DNA of 64,000 nt from the NCBI RefSeq assembly GCF_003143755.1, contig NZ_QFRI01000001.1, positions 1,262,051 to 1,326,050 on the forward strand. Reading direction: 5' to 3'. The notes under the pieces were generated by a model. It saw only the letters and a program-made list of their open reading frames with translations, had not been told where the DNA came from and did not search any database. A program made the translations under genes and the position numbers. Below, one piece after another: positions 50,907 through 61,810 of this stretch. Each line of letters opens with the position of its first letter. Within the stretch, counting starts at the first letter, position 1. Source of the DNA: Algibacter marinivivus. GTDB taxonomy: Bacteria > Bacteroidota > Bacteroidia > Flavobacteriales > Flavobacteriaceae.

Positions 50907-52370
50907 TTACATAGCAACCAAGTCGCCAGTAATATCTTTAGAAGGTAAATTAGATTTACCCATTAAATATAAATCTACTTGTCTTGCAGCTTCTCTTCCT
51001 TCTGAAATAGCCCAAACAATTAAAGATTGTCCACGACGCATATCACCAGCAGTGAATATGTTTGGAATGTTTGTTTGATACTTTCCGTATTCTGCTTTGT
51101 AGTTTGAACGGGCATCGGTTTTAATACCTAATTTATCAGCAAGCGTGCTTTCTGGTCCTGTAAAACCAAGTGCTAATAAAGCTAAATCACAAGGCCATGT
51201 TTTTTCTGTACCTTCAATTTCAATTAATTGAGGACGTTCACCAGGAACCATTTTCCACTCTACATTAACCGTTTTTAAAGCCGTTAATTTTCCGTTCTTA
51301 TCTTTTACAAACTCTTTTGTATTGATTAACCAATTACGTTCAACACCCTCTTGATGAGACGACGATGTTTTTAGCTGTAATGGCCAAAAAGGCCAAGGTG
51401 TAGTTGGTGAACGATGTCCTGGTGGCTTAGGCATAATTTCAAAATTAACTACCGATTTTGCACCATGACGGTTTGATGTTCCAATACAATCTGAACCTGT
51501 ATCTCCACCACCAATAACAATTACGTTTTTATCAGTAGCCATCACTTGGTTTTCAACCTTCTTACCAAATAATACTTTGGTTTGTTGTGTTAAGAAATCC
51601 ATAGCTTGCACAACGCCATCAGCATCAATGCCTGGAGTTGGTAAACTACGTCTTTCTGTAGCGCCACCACAAAGTACAACGGAATCAAATGCTTTTAAAT
51701 CTTCAACATCATAATTAATACCAACATTTACGTTAGTTTTAAAAATGATGCCTTCAGCTTCAAGAATAGCAATACGGCGGTCTATAATTTCTTTTTCCAT
51801 TTTGAAATTTGGAATACCGTAACGTAATAATCCTCCAACTTCATCATCACGTTCAAAAACAGTTACTGTATGTCCAGCTCTGTTTAATTGTTGCGCAGCA
51901 GCTAAACCAGCAGGTCCAGAACCAACAACAGCAATAGTTTTTCCTGTTCTTGTTTTTGGTGGTTGAGGCTTAATCCAACCTTCTTTAAATGCACGTTCTA
52001 CGATGTTTTTCTCTATATTTTCAATAGATACAGGATCTTCTATGATACCTAACACACATGATTTTTCACATGGTGCTGGACATAAACGACCTGTAAACTC
52101 AGGAAAATTATTTGTTGAATGTAATATCCAAGAAGCTTTTTGCCACTCTCCTTGATGAACCATGTGATTAAAATCAGGAATTAAGTTTCCTAATGGGCAA
52201 CCACTATGGCAAAAAGGAATACCACAATCCATACAACGTGATCCTTGTTTTTCTAATTCTGGCTCACTAAGTGATACAGTAAATTCTTTATAATTTTTAA
52301 CACGATCCTTTACAGGCTTGTAGGCCTCATCTTGTCTTTCAAATTCTTTAAATCCTGTTACTTTTCCCAT
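50907..52370 (-). CDS. gltD: Glutamate synthase small subunit
   Basis: This 487-residue NADPH-oxidising subunit of GOGAT passes electrons to GltB. Its N-terminal Fe-S cysteines are in CMDCGIPFCHSGCPLGN. The FAD motif is VVGSGPAGLAAAQQL and the NADPH motif is VIGGGDTGSDCIGT. It ends with the FAD site TAGDMRRGQSLIVWAISEGR. It follows gltB with a 4-base gap. Confidence 0.96.
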   Translation of the reverse strand: MGKVTGFKEFERQDEAYKPVKDRVKNYKEFTVSLSEPELEKQGSRCMDCGIPFCHSGCPLGNLIPDFNHMVHQGEWQKASWILHSTNNFPEFTGRLCPAPCEKSCVLGIIEDPVSIENIEKNIVERAFKEGWIKPQPPKTRTGKTIAVVGSGPAGLAAAQQLNRAGHTVTVFERDDEVGGLLRYGIPNFKMEKEIIDRRIAILEAEGIIFKTNVNVGINYDVEDLKAFDSVVLCGGATERRSLPTPGIDADGVVQAMDFLTQQTKVLFGKKVENQVMATDKNVIVIGGGDTGSDCIGTSNRHGAKSVVNFEIMPKPPGHRSPTTPWPFWPLQLKTSSSHQEGVERNWLINTKEFVKDKNGKLTALKTVNVEWKMVPGERPQLIEIEGTEKTWPCDLALLALGFTGPESTLADKLGIKTDARSNYKAEYGKYQTNIPNIFTAGDMRRGQSLIVWAISEGREAARQVDLYLMGKSNLPSKDITGDLVAM

Positions 52371-52374
52371 AACA

Positions 52375-55300
52375 CTATGCTGTTGTTAATTCTTCTACCA
52401 TTTGTTCTTCAGTCTCTAAACGTTTTAATGCACGTTTATATTCAATAGGCATCACTTTTACAAAGTTTCCTAAACTAGCATCCCAATCTGCTAATAATTT
52501 TGAACCTAGACTACTGTTAGTATAAAGCACATGCTTTTCAATAGTTTGTTTTAAATCATTTGCATCTTCACTGGTGATGTCTTCAAATTCTATAGTTTCT
52601 GTATTGCATAATCCGTTTACAAATTTCTTTTCAGAATCATAAACATAAGCAATACCACCACTCATACCTGCAGCAAAGTTTCTTCCTGTTTTACCAAGAA
52701 CAACTACTTTTCCTCCAGTCATATATTCACAACAATGATCTCCAACACCTTCAACAACTGTTGTTGCTCCGGAGTTTCTTACTGCAAAACGTTCTCCTGC
52801 TATACCATTTATATAGGCTTCACCTGCAACGGCTCCAAATAAACATACATTACCAATTATAATGTTGTTTTCGGCAATAAAGTCTGCTTTAACTGGTTTT
52901 TTAACAATCAATTTAGCTCCAGATAATCCTTTTCCTAAATAATCGTTTGTGTTTCCTTCTAAAGTGAATGTTAATCCGTGTGCTCCAAAAGCTCCAAAAC
53001 TTTGACCAGCTGAACCTGTGAAATTGATATTTAAAGTATCCTCAGGTAAACCTAAATGACCATAAATTTTAGAAATTTCATTACTAACTATAGCCCCTAC
53101 TGTACGGTCTATATTGTTTATTGGATATTCTAAAGTCATTTTTTCTTTTCTATATAAAGCTCTATGAGAATCTTTTAATATAGTAAAGTCTAAAACGTTC
53201 TTTAAATTATGATCTTGTTGCTCTGTATTTCTAACAGTCAACTCTCTATAGGCAGCTGGTCTGTGTAAAATACTTGATAAATCTAAGCCTTTTGCTTTGT
53301 AATGCTTAATCGCTTTATTAGCATTTATTTTATGTGTTTGACCTACCATTTCAGCTAGAGTTCTAAACCCTAACTGCGCCATAATACCTCTTAATTCTTC
53401 AGCGATATAATAGAAGAAATTAATAACGTGTTCTGGCGTACCTTTAAAGTTTTTACGTAACTCTTTATCTTGAGTTGCAATACCAACAGGACATGTATTT
53501 AAGTGACACTTACGCATCATAATACAACCTGAAGCTACTAAAGGAGCAGTTGCAAAACCAAATTCCTCAGCGCCTAATAAAGCAGCAATAGCAACATCTC
53601 TACCTGTTTTTAACTGGCCATCACATTCTACAACAATTCTACTTCTTAAATTGTTTAAAACTAGTGTTTGTTGTGCTTCCGATAAACCAAGTTCCCAAGG
53701 CAAACCTGCATGTTTTAATGATGTTAACGGAGATGCTCCAGTTCCACCATCATATCCTGCAATTAATACCACATCGGCTTTCGCTTTTGCTACACCGGCA
53801 GCAATAGTTCCTACACCTACTTCTGATACTAATTTTACATTAATTCTAGCTTCACGATTTGCATTCTTTAAATCGTAAATTAATTGTGCTAAATCTTCAA
53901 TAGAATATATATCGTGATGCGGAGGTGGTGAAATCAACCCGACAAAAGGCGTTGAGTTACGTGCCGAAGCAATCCATGGTAATACTTTTTCACCAGGTAA
54001 TTGTCCGCCTTCTCCAGGTTTAGCACCTTGAGCCATTTTTATTTGGATTTCTCTCGCATTAGTTAAATAATGTGATGTGACTCCAAAACGACCAGAGGCA
54101 ACTTGTTTTATTGCTGAATTACGACTATCGCCGTTTATATCTTTTTGAAAACGCTTTCTATCTTCTCCTCCTTCACCAGAATTAGATTTTCCCCCAATTC
54201 TATTCATGGCAATCGCTAGGTTTTCATGTGCCTCACGAGATATTGACCCGTAAGACATGGCTCCAGTTTTAAATTTCTTAACAATCTCTGTCCAAGGTTC
54301 TACTTCTTCTAAAGGAATAGGGTCTAAGTTGTCAAACTCAAATAAACCACGAATGGTCATTAAATTTGCGGATTGCTCATTTATCGCTTTAGCATAAACA
54401 TCATAACTGGCTTGATCACTTAATCGAACCGCTTGTTGCAATTTTGAAACTGTAGTTGGATTAAATAAGTGGCGTTCTCCATTACGTCTCCATCTGTAAT
54501 CTCCACCAATATTTAAACCTAGTTTTTTATCTATACTATTATCTGGATAAGCTTGTTTATAACGTTGGTCAATTTCTTTTTCAATTTCATATAAACCAAT
54601 ACCTTCTATTCTTGAAGCGGTGTATGGGAAATATTTTTCTACAAATTGAGAATTAAAACCAACAATTTCGAAAATTTGAGAACCTCTGTACGAGTGCAGC
54701 GTGGAGATTCCAATTTTATTCATCACTTTTAAAATACCTTTTCCAATAGCTTTATTGAAGTTGTCAACTGCTTTTTGCTCATCCATACCAGTAATGAAAC
54801 CTTCTTTCACTTGCATTCTGATAATTTCATTTACCATATAAGGATTTATAGCACTAGCGCCATATCCGAATAAAGTAGCAAAGTGATGCGGTTCACGAGG
54901 TTCTGCTGATTCAATTATTATATCGAAAAAAGAGCGCTTACGTAAACGATTCATTTCATGGTTTACATAAGAACACGCTAATAAAGCAGGAATAGGAGCA
55001 AATTCTTTATTTACACCTCTATCTGAAAGAATGATAATATTTGTTTTTCTTTCTAAAGCTTTTTCAATTTGAATGATAATATTATCTAGAGCATCTTCTA
55101 AACCATTCATTCCTTGAGCCTTTGGATAAAGCATTTGAATGGTTTCAGCTTTAAAGCTTTCAACTGAGATACTTCTGATTTTTTCTAAATCGGCATTAGA
55201 GATAACAGGATTTTGTATTTTTAATTTTCTACACTGTCTTTCTGTAATACTGAATATGTTTCTGTCTTTACCAAGATTTAAACTAATATCTGTTACAATT

Positions 55301-56889
55301 TCCTCACGAATACCATCTAAAGGTGGGTTTGTTACTTGAGCAAAAAGTTGTTTAAAATAGTTTGAAATCAATTGAGGTCTATCAGATAAAACCGCTAATG
55401 GCGTATCTATACCCATAGAACCTAAAGCTTCTTTTCCAACAATTGCCATTGGTGTAATTACTTCTTGAATATCTTCAAACGTGTAGTTGAATAAACGTTG
55501 ACGCGTCTTGATATCAATAGTTTCAATTGGGCAAGTTTCGTTGTTATAAGGAATATCTTTTAGGTGTAATCTAGTTTTATCAAGCCATTCTTGGTATGGT
55601 CTTTCAGAAACAATTTTACTTTTTATTTCTTCATCTTGAATGATTCGACCTTTGTTCATATCAACCAAGAACATTTTCCCTGGCTCTAATCTACCGTGTT
55701 CTTTTACGTCTTCTGGAGCAACATCTACAACACCAATTTCTGATGACATAATAAGTTTTCCGCTCTTAGTTACCGTATATCGTGAAGGCCTTAAACCATT
55801 TCTGTCTAGTAAAGCACCAATATAGTCACCATCTGTAAAAGGTACAGAAGCTGGACCATCCCATGGTTCCATGATACTGGCGTTGTACTCATAAAATGCT
55901 TTACGCTCATCAGACATGGTAGCATGTTTTTCCCAAGCTTCAGGAATCATCATCATCATGATTTCTGGTAAAGAACGATCAGTATGTGTTAATAATTCAA
56001 CCACCATATCCATAGAAGCTGAATCAGATTTTCCTGGTAAAATAATTGGAAAAAGTTTGTCTATTTGTGGTCCGAAAACATCACTTCTCATGATTTCTTC
56101 TCGAACACGCATTCTACTTACATTACCACGAAGCGTATTTATTTCCCCATTCTGACACATAAAGCGAAATGGTTGTGCTAACTCCCAAGTAGGCATTGTG
56201 TTGGTTGAGAAACGTTGGTGTACTAAAGCTAAACGTGTAACTAAATCTATTTGCTGTAAATCTGTGTAATATGGCCCAATATCTTCAGGCATAATAATAC
56301 CTTTATATATTAGTGTTGTAGTAGATAAACTTGGAACATAGAAATAGTCACTTTCAGAGATTTTTGATGTTCTAATAGTATGCTCTGTTATTTTTCTAGC
56401 TGCATATAATTTAGCTTTAAAAGTAGCTTCATCAATAGGTTCTGTTTTACCAATAAATAATTGCTCTATATTAGGTTCAGATGCTAATGCGATTTGTCCT
56501 AATTGAGAAGAATCAACAGGCACTTGCCTCCATCCTAAAACGGATAAACCTTGTTCCTCAACTTCCTTTTCAAAAGTAGTTTTACAAAAGTTATATTGGT
56601 TGTCAACTTTAGGTAAAAAAACCATCCCTACAGCATACTCTCTTTGTTCTGGAATACTAAAATCGCAAACACGTTTAAAATAATCATGAGGGATGTCAAT
56701 TAAAAGACCAGCACCATCACCAGTTTTTCCATCAGCACTAACACCACCACGGTGTTCTAATTTTACTAGAATCTCTAAGGCATCATGTATGATTTGATTT
56801 GTTTTCTCTCCTTTAAGATTACAAATAAAACCAGCGCCACAATTTTCATGTTCAAATTCTGGTAAATAAAGTCCTTGTTTCTTAATCAT
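52375..56889 (-). CDS. gltB: Glutamate synthase large subunit
   Basis: This 1504-residue enzyme makes two glutamates from glutamine and 2-oxoglutarate. A short propeptide ([16 protein letters not shown]) precedes Cys17, the catalytic N-terminal Cys of the class II amidotransferase (CGAGFICN). The central and FMN-binding domains follow, with [14 protein letters not shown] and the 3Fe-4S ligands in [15 protein letters not shown], and a C-terminal GXGXG beta-helix. The ATG at 56889 is preferred over a TTG nine bases upstream. The promoter lies across the control region shared with the porin gene. Confidence 0.96.
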
Positions 56890-56928
56890 AATCAACAATA
56901 AATTAGTTTAAAAACTTGAGTTGAAAAG

Positions 56929-56958
56929 CTAAGATACGTGCTAGTTTTTGAATTACAA
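56929..56958 (-). promoter_or_regulatory. Putative gltB promoter with AATAGGGT-like site
   Basis: On the minus strand TTG (56956-56958), 19 bases, then TATCTTAG (56929-56936) gives the standard spacing with a fair -7. The -33 lies inside CACCCTATTGTAA, whose complement CAATAGGGT (56956-56964) recurs further along this spacer. A protein bound there would cover the -33. Confidence 0.5.
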
Positions 56959-57204
56959 TAGGGTGTATTTCATTATTTCGATTTTAGAAGTCATCGGGTT
57001 ATAAAAATAATTATATATCAATATTAGACGGCTTTTTTAATAAATATTCAAACTCTAATTTTTTATCAATTAATAAGGATATGTGAATTTCTTCCAAGAA
57101 ATCACCTTTTTAATGAAAAAAATTGCATTAAAATTTAAAGAAAACTAGCAATAATTCAATTTACAATATTGTTAAAATATCAAAAAATACATTTTTTAAA
57201 TGAA

Positions 57205-57225
57205 TACCCTCAAAAAAATAGGGTA
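57205..57225. promoter_or_regulatory. TACCCT-N9-AGGGTA dyad in the nitrogen control region
   Basis: The half-sites TACCCT (57205-57210) and AGGGTA (57220-57225) are perfect inverted repeats separated by an A-rich 9-base spacer. It is 168 bases before the porin start. A similar dyad follows 53 bases downstream, about five DNA turns, so both could be bound on one face. Confidence 0.5.
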
Positions 57226-57256
57226 AAAAATCGAATATTGATAAAAGTAATTCAAA

Positions 57257-57278
57257 TACCCCTATTTTTTATGGGGGT
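57257..57278. promoter_or_regulatory. ACCCC-N11-GGGGT dyad at the porin promoter
   Basis: ACCCC (57258-57262) and GGGGT (57274-57278) flank an A/T core. The left part reads AATACCCCTATT, a relative of the AATAGGGT sites. A weak -7 (TAGTTTAG, 57294-57301) sits 19-20 bases downstream of the right half-site, so the dyad would overlap the -33 of the porin transcript. Confidence 0.45.
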
Positions 57279-57319
57279 TAGATTTTTTTAATATAGTTTA
57301 GCCCCGTTCTTAAGGGAAA

Positions 57320-57373
57320 TTAGATCTAGAACTATTTAACTTAAAATAAAAACTAATCAAAATCTAGGTCTAA
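57320..57373 (+). promoter_or_regulatory. Inverted repeat in the putative porin leader
   Basis: TTAGATCTAGA (57320-57330) and TCTAGGTCTAA (57363-57373) are complementary at 10 of 11 positions across 32 bases. If transcription begins near 57308, this is a hairpin in the 5' leader, ending 19 bases before the start codon. It could shield or expose the ribosome site. Confidence 0.4.
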
Positions 57374-57392
57374 GAATTTAAACAACTTAAAA

Positions 57393-58409
57393 ATGAAAAC
57401 AATGATGAAAAAAATTATTACACTTTCAATGCTTTTTGTAGCAACAGCGTTATTTGCTCAAGAAGAAGCAACAAAAAAATTAAATTTTTCAGGTAGTGTT
57501 GATACTTACTACAGAACAGTTTTAACAGCATCTGATGCTTTATCACCAGCAACTGAGTCTTCATTTGCAGATCAAACAGGTTTTGCTTTAGGTATGGCTA
57601 ACATTATAGCTTCTTATGAAGGAGATAAAACTGGAGTTGTAGCAGATTTAGCTTTTGGTACTAGAGGTTTACAAGCTGTAGGCGGTGGTACTGATGTATT
57701 TATCAATCAATTATATGCTTACTGGAATGTGTCTGAAGGTACAACTTTAACTTTAGGTCGTTTTAATACTTACTTAGGTTACGAGGTAATTTCTCCAGTT
57801 GGAAACTTTAATTATAGTACTTCTTACATGTTCTCTTACGGACCATTTTCTCACGTAGGTTTAAAAGCTGATTTTGCTTTATCTGATGATTTTAGCTTAA
57901 TGACAGCTATAATGAATGTTACAGATGTAAATAATAATACTACAGGAGATTATGCTTTAGGTGCTCAATTAGGGTATGCAGGTCAATTCTTAAACTTCTA
58001 CTATGATGGTGGAGCTGGTATTGGATTTGAAGTAGATTATACAGGTGGATTTGATTTATCTGATGATTTCTATTTAGGAATTAACGCTGCTTATCAAGAT
58101 AATGATGGTGCTGGTTTTTACGGTGCTGCATTATACCCACAGTTAGCAACTTCAGATGCATTTACTATTGGTTTAAGAGCTGAATATTTCCAACAATTAG
58201 AAGATGGAGGAGTTTTAGCAGCTTTACCAGCTGATGAAAGTATCTTAGGTGTTACTCTAACAGGTAGCTATACTTTAGAAAACTTAATTATCAAACCAGA
58301 ATTACGTTTAGATAGCGCTTCTGAAGAGGTAGTTAACTTCCCAGATAGCGATGGTGCTCCTTCTAAAAGCTTAGCGGCATTTACATTAGCTGCAATCTAC
58401 TCTTTCTAA
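57393..58409 (+). CDS. Outer-membrane beta-barrel porin of the ammonium locus
   Basis: This 338-residue protein has a signal peptide ending ALFAQ. The rest alternates polar and aromatic residues in barrel-type strands and ends in the aromatic AAIYSF typical of outer-membrane proteins. It resembles small porins found next to amt/glnB in Bacteroidota, so uptake of ammonium or small nitrogen compounds across the outer membrane is plausible. Three adjacent Met codons leave the exact start open by up to four residues; the effect is nil. Confidence 0.82.
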   Translation: MKTMMKKIITLSMLFVATALFAQEEATKKLNFSGSVDTYYRTVLTASDALSPATESSFADQTGFALGMANIIASYEGDKTGVVADLAFGTRGLQAVGGGTDVFINQLYAYWNVSEGTTLTLGRFNTYLGYEVISPVGNFNYSTSYMFSYGPFSHVGLKADFALSDDFSLMTAIMNVTDVNNNTTGDYALGAQLGYAGQFLNFYYDGGAGIGFEVDYTGGFDLSDDFYLGINAAYQDNDGAGFYGAALYPQLATSDAFTIGLRAEYFQQLEDGGVLAALPADESILGVTLTGSYTLENLIIKPELRLDSASEEVVNFPDSDGAPSKSLAAFTLAAIYSF

Positions 58410-58422
58410 CAAAAAAATTGAG

Positions 58423-58453
58423 ACCATCTTCATAATATTATGGAGATGGTTTT
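58423..58453 (+). terminator. Hairpin after the porin gene (weak terminator or processing site)
   Basis: ACCATCTTCAT and ATGGAGATGGT pair over 11 bp with one G-T, but only four T follow. It may let part of the transcription continue into the P-II and amt genes, giving more porin mRNA than amt mRNA. Confidence 0.6.
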
Positions 58454-58480
58454 ATACTAATCAATTAATACATATATAAT

Positions 58481-58819
58481 ATGAAAAAAGTTGAAGCAAT
58501 AATAAGAAAGTCCAAGTATAGTGCAGTAAGAGATGCATTGCATAATGTTGGCGTAAACTTTTTCTCTTACTGGGATGTTACTGGTTTAGGAAATGAAAAA
58601 GAAGGACATGTATACAGAGGTGTATCATATAGTACAAGTGATATACAACGTAGACATTTGTCAATAGTTGTAAATGATGACTTTGAAGAGATAACTGTTA
58701 AAACACTTCTTGAGGCTGCGAGCACAGGAGAAGTAGGAGATGGTAAAATATTTGTTTCAGACATCAATGAGTGTTACAGAATACGAACAGGAGAAAAAGG
58801 TGGAGACACTTTAAAATAA
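58481..58819 (+). CDS. P-II family signal protein, copy 1
   Basis: This 112-residue P-II protein senses 2-oxoglutarate and ATP/ADP and should bind the Amt channel to close it. The C-terminal signature GEVGDGKIFVSDINECYRIR and RTGE are normal. The region before the T-loop reads DVTGLGNEKEGHVYRG, so the usual Gln39 position holds Glu. The T-loop keeps Tyr in YRGVSY. It lies 22 bases before amt and is 98 of 112 residues identical to the copy after amt. Confidence 0.92.
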   Translation: MKKVEAIIRKSKYSAVRDALHNVGVNFFSYWDVTGLGNEKEGHVYRGVSYSTSDIQRRHLSIVVNDDFEEITVKTLLEAASTGEVGDGKIFVSDINECYRIRTGEKGGDTLK

Positions 58820-58841
58820 AAACCAAAAAACTTTTATAATT

Positions 58842-60062
58842 ATGGAAGGATTATTTACAGCTAATAATGTATGGATGATGGTCTGTACAGCCCTAGTTTT
58901 CTTTATGCACACAGGTTTTGCATTTTTAGAAATAGGATTAACAAGACAAAAAAATACGATAAACATATTATTTAAAAATATCTTTATCATTACAGTAGGA
59001 TTATTACTTTATTACTTAATAGGATTTAACTTAATGTATCCTGGAGAATTTAATGGATATATTGGTTCAATTGTTCCTGGTATTGGAGCTCCAGAAAATG
59101 GAATGACACCAGAATACGCAGATGGCGGATATACATGGTGGACAGATTTCTTATTCCAAGGGATGTTTGCTGCAACAGCTGCAACAATTGTTTCAGGTGC
59201 TGTTGCTGAACGTATGAAAATAGGACCATTTATGATTTTCACAGTAATCTACGTAGGGTTTGTTTACCCAATTGCAGGTTCTTGGAAATGGGGTGGTGGA
59301 TTCTTAGATGAATTAGGATTTTATGATTTTGCTGGTTCTACTTTAGTACACTCTGTAGGTGGATGGGCAGCCTTAGTAGCTGTTTGGTTATTAGGTTCTA
59401 GAATTGGAAAATTTAAAGAAGGAAAACCTCAAGCAATCCCAGGTCACAATATACCTTTAGCAACTGCTGGTGTGTTAGTACTTTGGTTAGGATGGTTCGG
59501 ATTTAACGGAGGTTCTGTACTTTCTGCTGATCCAGAATTAACATCATTAACTTTAGTTACAACATGTTTAGCTGCGGCTGCAGGTGGTGTAGTTGCTGCA
59601 CTAGTATCGTTTATCAAATACAAAAATTTAGATTTAACAATGTTCTTAAATGGTATTTTAGGAGGATTAGTTGGTATTACAGCTGGAGCAGATGTTATGA
59701 CACCAGAAAGCGCAATTATTATTGGTGCTATTGCCGGAGCGCTTATTGTATTTGCTGTTGCTTTTATAGATGCTATTAAGTTAGATGACCCAGTTGGAGC
59801 TATTGCAGTACACTTAATATGTGGTATTTGGGGAACTTTAGCAGTTGGTATTTTCTCAACAAATCCAGATCATACATTTTTGGCACAATTAACAGGTGTT
59901 GCTTGTTATGCTGGGTTCTGTTTAGTCACTTCTTTCATCATCATATTCACACTTAAGAAAGTTGTTGGAATTAGAGTTTCTGAAAGAGAAGAATTAGAAG
60001 GATTAGATGGTCATGAACACGGAATGAGTGCATACTCAGATTTCCGAATGAATGAGCATTAA
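58842..60062 (+). CDS. amt: Ammonium transporter
   Basis: This 406-residue Amt channel has eleven membrane segments. It has the signature DFAGSTLVHSVGGWAALVA, the conserved VWMMVCTALVFFMHTGFAFL at the start, and the twin-His region (HSVGG; AVHLICGIWGTLA). A cytosolic C-terminal tail (KVVGIRVSEREELEGLDGHE) is present for P-II control. It is flanked by two P-II genes. A good terminator follows. Confidence 0.96.
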   Translation: MEGLFTANNVWMMVCTALVFFMHTGFAFLEIGLTRQKNTINILFKNIFIITVGLLLYYLIGFNLMYPGEFNGYIGSIVPGIGAPENGMTPEYADGGYTWWTDFLFQGMFAATAATIVSGAVAERMKIGPFMIFTVIYVGFVYPIAGSWKWGGGFLDELGFYDFAGSTLVHSVGGWAALVAVWLLGSRIGKFKEGKPQAIPGHNIPLATAGVLVLWLGWFGFNGGSVLSADPELTSLTLVTTCLAAAAGGVVAALVSFIKYKNLDLTMFLNGILGGLVGITAGADVMTPESAIIIGAIAGALIVFAVAFIDAIKLDDPVGAIAVHLICGIWGTLAVGIFSTNPDHTFLAQLTGVACYAGFCLVTSFIIIFTLKKVVGIRVSEREELEGLDGHEHGMSAYSDFRMNEH

Positions 60063-60095
60063 TATATTTTAGTTTAGTTAGTTTAGTTTGAAGAA

Positions 60096-60127
60096 AAGGG
60101 TGTCTTTTATAAAGGCGCCCTTTTTTT
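60096..60127 (+). terminator. Intrinsic terminator after amt
   Basis: AAGGGTGTCTTT pairs with AAAGGCGCCCTT (two G-T pairs) over a four-base loop, then seven T. It separates amt from the second P-II gene, which therefore needs its own promoter. Confidence 0.85.
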
Positions 60128-60214
60128 GTTTTATCTAAATTGTACAGATATAATAGTTTATAATGTTGCTAATATTTTTTACTTTTATACAAAGGAACTC
60201 ATAAATAAATAGTA

Positions 60215-60553
60215 ATGAAGAAAATAGAAGCCATTATAAGAAAGTCTAAGTATAAAGTCGTTAGAGATAGATTACACGAAGCAGGTGTAAACTTCTTTTC
60301 TTACTGGGATGTAACAGGGCTAGGAAACGAAAAAGAAGGACATGTTTATAGAGGTATATCGTATAGCACCAGTGATATACAACGCAGATATTTATCAATA
60401 GTAGTAAACGATGATTTTGAAGACATAACCATAAAAACACTTCTTGAAGCAGCAAGTACAGGTGAAGTTGGCGATGGTAAAATATTTGTGTCAGATATTA
60501 ACGAATGTTACAGAATACGAACAGGAGAAAAAGGGCGAGATGCTATAAACTAA
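60215..60553 (+). CDS. P-II family signal protein, copy 2
   Basis: This 112-residue paralogue differs from copy 1 at 14 positions, mostly in the first 23 residues and the last five. It has the same Glu in place of Gln39 (DVTGLGNEKEGH), the same T-loop (YRGISYSTSD) and the same C-terminal signature. The amt terminator precedes it, so it can be expressed on its own. It may serve a different target or condition from copy 1. Confidence 0.92.
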   Translation: MKKIEAIIRKSKYKVVRDRLHEAGVNFFSYWDVTGLGNEKEGHVYRGISYSTSDIQRRYLSIVVNDDFEDITIKTLLEAASTGEVGDGKIFVSDINECYRIRTGEKGRDAIN

Positions 60554-60890: not shown

Positions 60891-61796
60891 CTAAAGGTTC
60901 AATTCCCACATTTGCTCTTCTAAATTTTCTTTCCAAAGAGAATGTATTTTAGTTTCAGTCATTGTGAAACCATTTTTTTCATAAATTGTGTGTGCACCGT
61001 CTAATCCTTTATGAGTCCAAAGGAACAAATGTTTATATTTTGTTTTTTTAGCAAAATTCATGATTTTATTCATTAAAATTCTACCAATTCCAAATCCTCT
61101 TAAAGCCGGTGATAGATAGAAAAAGCGTAGTTGAGCTGACTCATTAGAGCGATGCTGTAAAGCGATTGAACCTTCAACTTTTCCATTTTTTTCAACTATA
61201 TAAAATACATCTTTTTTTTTGTCAAAATTTAATATGAATTCAGAAAAATCTTTTGCTACAAAAGCCTCAAAAATTTCTGTATAGCCGTAAGTGTCAGCGT
61301 AATATTTTCCATGAAAATGAGTAATAGTCCCTAAATCACCAGGTTGATGTGTTCTAATTATTGGTAAGCTTTCTTTTTTAGGATTTAAACAAGAGTAAGC
61401 TGTATCAATAGCATCTATTAGTTTAGATTGAGAATCACTATCAAGTTTTTCGAGTATACTGTTAATTCTTTGATTTTCAAATTTATTTATGTCATCTGCA
61501 ATTTTTTCACCTAAGGTTGTCAAGCTTAAATAATTCGACCTTTTATCATTGTTATCTGAAACTTTGCTTATATAACCTTTATTAGTGTACTTTTTTATTA
61601 TTCTAGAAGCATAACCTGTATCAATATGTAATACTTCAGATATTTCTTTTAATGTTAATTTGTTGTGAATGCTTAATTCATACAAAATGCGAGTTTCGGT
61701 AACAGAAAAATTATTATTGTAATGTGAATCAAAAACCCTTAATCTATTAAAGTAATCTCGATTAAATTTTCTTAGAAGTTTTATTTTATTTGACAT
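60891..61796 (-). CDS. MarR regulator fused to a GNAT acetyltransferase
   Basis: This 301-residue protein is a known two-domain type. Residues 1-140 form a MarR winged helix (SVTETRILYELS, LTLKEISEVLHIDTGYASRI, YISKVSDNNDKRSNYLSLT). Residues about 150-300 form an acetyltransferase with LRFFYLSPALRGFGIGRILM and IYEKNGFTMTETKIHSLW. It may sense or acetylate a small molecule and regulate its own gene. The ATG at 61796 is preferred over a GTG six bases upstream. A very clear promoter and operator precede it. Confidence 0.92.
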   Translation of the reverse strand: MSNKIKLLRKFNRDYFNRLRVFDSHYNNNFSVTETRILYELSIHNKLTLKEISEVLHIDTGYASRIIKKYTNKGYISKVSDNNDKRSNYLSLTTLGEKIADDINKFENQRINSILEKLDSDSQSKLIDAIDTAYSCLNPKKESLPIIRTHQPGDLGTITHFHGKYYADTYGYTEIFEAFVAKDFSEFILNFDKKKDVFYIVEKNGKVEGSIALQHRSNESAQLRFFYLSPALRGFGIGRILMNKIMNFAKKTKYKHLFLWTHKGLDGAHTIYEKNGFTMTETKIHSLWKENLEEQMWELNL

Positions 61797-61810
61797 AAAC
61801 ACCTATTTAA

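Follow-up and report, generated by a model that had tools for sequence, protein, structure and literature searches.

Dyad-binding regulators of ammonium transporter (amt), PII and glutamine synthetase genes are known from several bacterial lineages: NtcA in cyanobacteria, GlnR/TnrA in Firmicutes and AmtR/GlnR in Actinobacteria. The NtcA box reads GTA-N8-TAC and that of GlnR/TnrA TGTNA-N7-TNACA, while NtrC/sigma-54 systems are marked by GG-N10-GC promoters and GCAC..GTGC boxes. The Crp site is TGTGA-N6-TCACA, and in the class II promoter mechanism the activator sits at the -35 region, with the alpha C-terminal domain of RNA polymerase on the DNA upstream. In Bacteroidota, the sigma-A -33 element is a TTG or TTTG located about 19 nt upstream of the -7 box. 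A search of the open-licence literature gave, among the papers listed, none that describes a nitrogen regulator, or its motif, for Bacteroidota or flavobacteria.

The locus compared here with these systems belongs to Algibacter marinivivus and was studied within a stretch of 64,000 nucleotides (the window). A porin-PII-Amt-PII unit (57393-60553) diverges from gltD-gltB, and two dyads lie in between. Exact patterns for NtrC, NtcA, the GlnR/TnrA of Firmicutes, NarL (7-2-7), CRP, FNR, NifA and sigma-54 were sought on both strands of 56890-57392 and none was found. The sequence-only reading, which had not recognised the motif as NtrC, TnrA, GlnR or sigma-54 type, is thus borne out. Phage records had no match to the region either. 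The locus resembles the NtrC/sigma-54 regulons in its kind of targets (glnA, PII, amt), but has a sigma-A-type -7 box and neither the GG-N10-GC promoter nor the GCAC..GTGC boxes. It resembles the NtcA, GlnR/TnrA and AmtR regulons in having dyads at amt, PII and glutamine synthetase genes, but the GTA-N8-TAC and TGTNA-N7-TNACA boxes are absent. In its layout it recalls the class II/III promoters of Escherichia coli Crp, whose motifs peak at -41.5, -61.5 and -93.5 (PMC5957442): sites at -41.5 and -93.5 correspond to sites at about -38 and -91 in our locus, about five helical turns apart and with one of them overlapping the -35/-33 place. Nevertheless, the module has a CCC-N11-GGG core whose half-sites are spaced by 14 bp, the -7 box is that of Bacteroidota and the HTH_Crp_2 domain was not found in three genomes carrying a strong module. 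The cyanobacterial glnA RNA motif is associated with the same PII, amt and glutamine synthetase genes (PMC2864571), but it is an RNA element, whereas the module is made of sites in the DNA that precede the predicted start and has no Rfam match at threshold.

The two dyads are probably where a nitrogen regulator binds, and we consider it likely that the whole works as a sigma-A promoter which depends on an activator and belongs to a flavobacterial regulon for nitrogen assimilation, with dimers at about -38 and -91. We are evenly divided on the broader proposal that the Flavobacteriaceae, and perhaps related Bacteroidota families, have a master nitrogen regulator outside the known nitrogen-control families, which would read CCC-N11-GGG pairs locked at 53 bp and coordinate ammonium uptake with glutamine synthesis while omitting glutamate synthase. 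If the module has been read correctly, it would provide a probe, about 110 bp long, with which to isolate its regulator, and a mark by which the regulon can be read from genomes; it would also be an example, conserved in nature, of two regulator dimers held five helical turns apart.

Table 1. Features of the nitrogen locus in the window, and Lrp/AsnC genes of the same genome
Feature	Position	Strand	Remarks
gltD-gltB	50907-56898	-	
gltB, glutamate synthase large subunit, divergent neighbour	52375-56889	-	Pfam GATase_2 and Glu_syn_central on the first 834 residues
gltB core promoter, separate from the module (predicted)	56929-56958	-	TTG (56958-56956) - N19 - TATCTTAG (56936-56929)
Site 1, TACCCT-N9-AGGGTA	57205-57225		core CCC-N11-GGG 57207-57223, centre 57215, about -91; sequence and relatives
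A/T tract ATAAAAGT (family form ATAAAAAT)	57241-57248	+	centre about -61.5, between sites 1 and 2
Site 2, TACCCC..GGGGGTT	57257-57279		core CCC-N11-GGG 57260-57276, centre 57268, about -38; sequence and relatives
-7 box TAGTTTAG (predicted)	57294-57301	+	TAnnTTTG with one mismatch
Leader inverted repeat TTAGATCTAGA ... TCTAGGTCTAA	57320-57373	+	genus-level
BBP2-type porin, operon gene 1	57393-58409	+	Pfam PF07642, E 3e-61
PII nitrogen regulatory protein	58481-58819	+	Pfam PF00543
Ammonium transporter Amt	58842-60062	+	Pfam PF00909
Second PII protein	60215-60553	+	Pfam PF00543
Lrp/AsnC gene (L307)	C1:703677-704144		
Lrp/AsnC gene	C4:182231-182446		

The features are listed in Table 1. The gltB start was placed by reading at the ATG at 56889, the listed open reading frame beginning at a TTG at 56898. 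The perfect dyad of site 1 is present where the sequence-only reading had put it. The second dyad that it had described, ACCCC-N11-GGGGT, is also present, although its limits are 57258-57278 and the 57257 given for its beginning includes the preceding T; the distance of 53 bases between the two is exact. The core of site 2, which occupies the place of the -33 element, has a second register one base upstream. Directly beyond the porin-PII-Amt operon, the minus strand carries a gene for a MarR-type HTH fused to a GNAT acetyltransferase (60891-61802, 303 aa), which is not among the recurrent neighbours of the module listed for the clustered loci.

Of 60 related genomes, 26 were found to contain the porin, and the Amt loci considered were the best 80 of at least 591 named ones; the same two dyads occur repeatedly upstream of these porin and Amt relatives. 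Out of 54 loci scoring at least 21, 43 modules were aligned, near-duplicates (L005, L006, L009, L014, L044, L076, L109) as well as uncertain or incomplete matches (L038, L080, L084, L095) having been dropped. The module is made up of two CCC-N11-GGG cores with A/T-rich middles, ATAAAAAT between them and then a TAnnTTTG-like -7 box. The site 1 core keeps at least five of its six bases in all 43 modules (exact in 39) and the site 2 core in 42 (exact in 33). The core centres are 53 bp apart in 39 modules, 52 in three and 54 in one, and ATAAAAAT lies 23.5 bp upstream of the site 2 centre in 28. The best -7 box, sought without score threshold from +18 to +35 of the site 2 centre, starts 26 bp past that centre in 28 modules and 25-28 bp past it in all 43. 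This geometry is fixed, whereas most of the DNA between the sites varies. Compared with a Bacteroidota sigma-A promoter, the -7 box is found in 43/43 modules but the -33 element is generally lacking: TTG stands at that place in only six modules (TTTG in five) and is missing from the other 37. A flexible outer dyad of 21-23 bp was rejected in favour of the fixed core, since the outer length varies with the C and G runs of CCC-N11-GGG. Some relatives have degenerate sites or one dyad (Psychroflexus L056 and L067; Pontibacter L095), and none was seen on reading several Flavobacteriaceae loci and both Algoriphagus loci (L079, L089). As the two Psychroflexus loci keep a single dyad upstream of PII, at the -33 place, the upstream site is not universal. 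This remaining dyad is extended into a long perfect inverted repeat in both loci, which suggests that site 2 may be the essential one.

Individual dyads are a poor signal. ACCC-N11-GGGT occurs twice in the window against 0.15 expected, but the perfect outer dyad TACCC-N11..13-GGGTA occurs five times in the whole genome against three for a reversed-pattern control, so a lone dyad is not remarkable. Similarly, AATAGGGT is found five times in the window where 2.5 are expected, a number reached by 13 of 100 shuffles. Lone AATAGGGT and lone TACCC..GGGTA were therefore rejected as signals for want of excess. The combination that greatly exceeds chance is that of two dyads 53 bp apart with the promoter box, as kept in relatives. 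Pair and box are present at 17/20 porin-type operon heads and 31/51 named amt-operon heads, the strict test being failed by the other 20 of the latter. Among 7,100 dinucleotide-shuffled versions of these regions, none has both and 12 have the pair alone. In these counts, the G-handle and named locus sets overlap each other and the alignment (for example, L006 and L109 are one contig), and L051 and L054, whose operon heads are at a contig edge, were left out.

If the -7 box spans -12 to -5, as the TAnnTTTG box does in Flavobacterium psychrophilum (PMC9723704), transcription is predicted to start at 57306, from which the promoter positions in Table 1 follow. In the placement of their sites, the modules resemble class II/III tandem promoters, with two in-phase sites and one of them at the -33/-35 place. 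One regulator would bind as a rigid dimer to each CCC-N11-GGG core and its A/T-rich middle. The dimer at about -38, on site 2, would replace the -33 contact of the sigma factor and touch RNA polymerase, and a second dimer at about -91, five helical turns (53 bp) upstream, would assist it on that same side of the helix. Between them, at about -61.5, the A/T tract might contact the alpha C-terminal domains of the polymerase or bend the DNA. When nitrogen is short, both dimers would turn on the porin, PII and ammonium transporter genes, and a second copy of the module would turn on glutamine synthetase too. We infer activation because the modules usually have no -33 TTG; the nitrogen signal is deduced from the gene set only.

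The main alternative is repression, in which the pair of dimers would bind in nitrogen excess, cover the -33 place and bridge the 53 bp until starvation frees the promoter. Such nitrogen repressors exist in other lineages, namely AmtR and NrpR. The overlap of site 2 with the -33 place agrees with this scenario: a repressor covering it would leave a conserved dyad there just as an activator would, and cooperative repression would go well with two in-phase dyads separated by five turns. The one mismatch in the window's own -7 box counts against our main reading as a whole. Nevertheless, the absence of the -33 TTG from 37 of the 43 modules would make for a weak promoter if unaided, and the conserved ATAAAAAT between the sites is more easily explained as a polymerase contact. 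Thus, repression seems unlikely to us and activation is the reading that we prefer.

The genes behind the module support the link of the dyads with nitrogen assimilation. That they are regulatory DNA of the nitrogen operon, as the sequence-only reading proposed, is supported by 50 module loci, where the module is followed by the porin (29) or PII (21) at a distance of 8-86 bp. Gene order is porin-PII-amt in genomes of the window type and PII-amt-porin in Maribacter-like genomes, and some genomes (G188, G154) have an additional module before PII, inside the cluster. A divergent gltB was seen in 31 of the 50 loci; in the other 19, there was none on the stretch examined. A sequence-only model of the module (R1) was run on 299 Flavobacteriaceae genomes. 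It matches 141 of them at E <= 3.2e-10, including some that supplied the model, and 158 have no match at that level. At E <= 0.1 the number of matched genomes rises to 292, but many of the weak matches must be A/T-rich noise, since 51 matches at E <= 10 come from the A. marinivivus genome by itself.

Strong second copies of R1 point to a further target. Those examined precede glutamine synthetase genes in four genomes (G202, G276, G226 and G312; E from 1.7e-11 to 9.6e-13) and a PII-amt or porin unit in others (G188, G154, G312, G077, G298, G192); the glutamine synthetase copies were outside the training set of the model. In A. marinivivus itself, the second-best place is the gap between glnN and glnA (a GSIII-type and a 340-aa glutamine synthetase) at E 0.002, and the next match (L163), within a coding region, is nearly as good (E 0.003). 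Weak matches in the same gap were found in five of nine congeners (G001, G002, G004, G005, G007), the other four (G003, G006, G008, G009) having none at E <= 0.02. Matches also precede glutamine synthetase genes in G018, G010, G012, G014 and G016, as well as in G044, from outside the family. Five of the proteins (L162, two of L142, L193, L208) were confirmed as glutamine synthetases by Pfam, and the remaining such genes beside modules were called by likeness. Among 16 glutamine synthetase promoters, the best pair is spaced by 53 bp in 15 and by 52 bp in one (search range 40-70 bp), although this spacing is not independent evidence where a site is weak, because the scoring penalised departures from 53; frequently, one of the two sites is degenerate, and L203 lacks the -7 box. 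Twenty places chosen from the top of a list of matches were read. Eleven of them precede glutamine synthetase, two PII and one (L191) a secreted protein, and six (L194, L195, L201, L205, L206, L207) look like chance, being within unrelated genes or next to them. In the predicted regulon, the second branch is glutamine synthetase and not gltB. The L191 place (G037, another family; 1527-1622) is a GGGGG-run promoter before the gene of a secreted 'VSIGADFVSRYVWR' protein and resembles half a module; a gene like it lies ahead of PII in L075 and is found again in 7 of 53 loci.

The identity of the regulator was approached by looking for gene families that follow the module. Across the 53 clustered loci, the module has no recurrent regulator gene as its immediate neighbour; an Lrp gene is found about 3.5 kb past amt in 14 of them, which looks like shared gene order. 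The presence screen set 15 module genomes, mostly of at most 2.2 Mb, against 18 others; 14 of the 15 have strong modules and the last, G038, has a weak one (best E 3.5e-4), which was read at its PII gene. The families screened were Rrf2, CRP/FNR, GerE, HTH_8 and Lrp/AsnC. The outcome makes Rrf2, CRP/FNR, LuxR/NarL and one Lrp clade less likely candidates. Rrf2 (IscR-type) is missing from seven of the 15 module genomes (G044, G077, G083, G168, G280, G298, G302). CRP/FNR has no HTH_Crp_2 match in the strong-module genomes G083, G280 and G302, whose assemblies are 90, 91 and 86% complete. For NarL/LuxR, the screen of 21 genomes (15 with the module and six without) found no GerE domain over the cut-off in G083 and G302, and only weak ones in G280 (best E 6.8e-7). 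An HTH_8 protein is present in 33/33 genomes; it has GAFTGA in all eight cases read, and in seven of these it adjoins LptE-like genes, as identified by eye.

Lrp/AsnC genes are likewise present in 33/33 genomes, which leads to another explanation: a general regulator, for instance an Lrp/AsnC protein sensing the supply of amino acids, could bind the sites and merely include these genes among its targets. One Lrp clade, that of L307 and its relatives, has a distribution that follows the module, with counterexamples: with presence defined as E below 1e-45, it is found in 131 of 141 strong-module genomes as against 93 of 158 others. Yet, relatedness alone may cause this association, and the clade is missing from ten strong-module genomes, three of which (G149, G165, G186) are at least 99% complete, as well as from G044. 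It also occurs in G013, G153 and G261, which belong to the group without module. The Lrp tree comprised 90 places, one gene being included twice and one place having no protein, with a single copy each from the no-module genomes G091, G153 and G261. Moreover, no CCC..GGG pair was found upstream of the clade's own genes in either Lrp group read, and the strong second copies of the module that were examined precede glutamine synthetase, PII-amt or porin genes. We therefore doubt that the module belongs to such a general regulator, and a dedicated nitrogen regulator remains our preferred reading. In several genomes, the L307-type Lrp gene adjoins a saccharopine-dehydrogenase-like gene, identified by eye.

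The sequence-only reading had further proposed a single regulator for gltB and the porin-amt operon, acting through AATAGGGT-type sites. The half-site on which this was based, CAATAGGGT at 56956-56964, is indeed present at the -33 of gltB in the window. Nevertheless, the part of it that is conserved is the -33 TTG: among 15 relatives, 14 retain the gltB core promoter, TTG-N18..20-TAnnTT[TA][GA], but the adjacent AGGG (56960-56963) is not conserved, CCCTATTG being found in 4 of the 15. Besides, the exact core is absent from all 30 gltB upstream regions (170 bp) and from those of five relocated gltB genes (250 bp). Conservation in relatives, on which that reading had staked its proposal, therefore holds for the dyads and fails for the gltB site; gltB was rejected as a target of the regulon and a regulator shared by both sides is very improbable. 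The region upstream of gltB (56890-57060) has conserved blocks of its own on the gltB strand, CTTCTAAAATCGAAATAATG and TTGATATATAATTATTTTTAT, which may bind a different regulator.

Control at the RNA level, with the dyads as leader or attenuator hairpins transcribed from an upstream start in the manner of the cyanobacterial glnA RNAs, is just as improbable: site 2 and its T run do score as terminator-like (two such sites in the stretch against 0.2 expected), but both dyads are placed before the predicted start, their 53-bp separation and constant distance from the downstream sigma-A-type -7 box look like helical constraints on DNA, and Rfam gave a single sub-threshold chance match around the window region, inside gltB, and none in six relatives.

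The leader inverted repeat noted in the sequence-only reading is present, its arms at 57320-57330 and 57363-57373 forming an 11-bp stem, but it is not counted as a part of the switch. It is common to the congeners and, by reading, absent in L007. It folds modestly better than shuffled sequences (z -1.76; 13 of 200 shuffles fold as well), and one of the seven consensus pairs in an alignment of 11 sequences shows a two-sided change. The repeat, TAGATCTA...TAGATCTA, is direct and inverted at once because AGATCT is itself palindromic.
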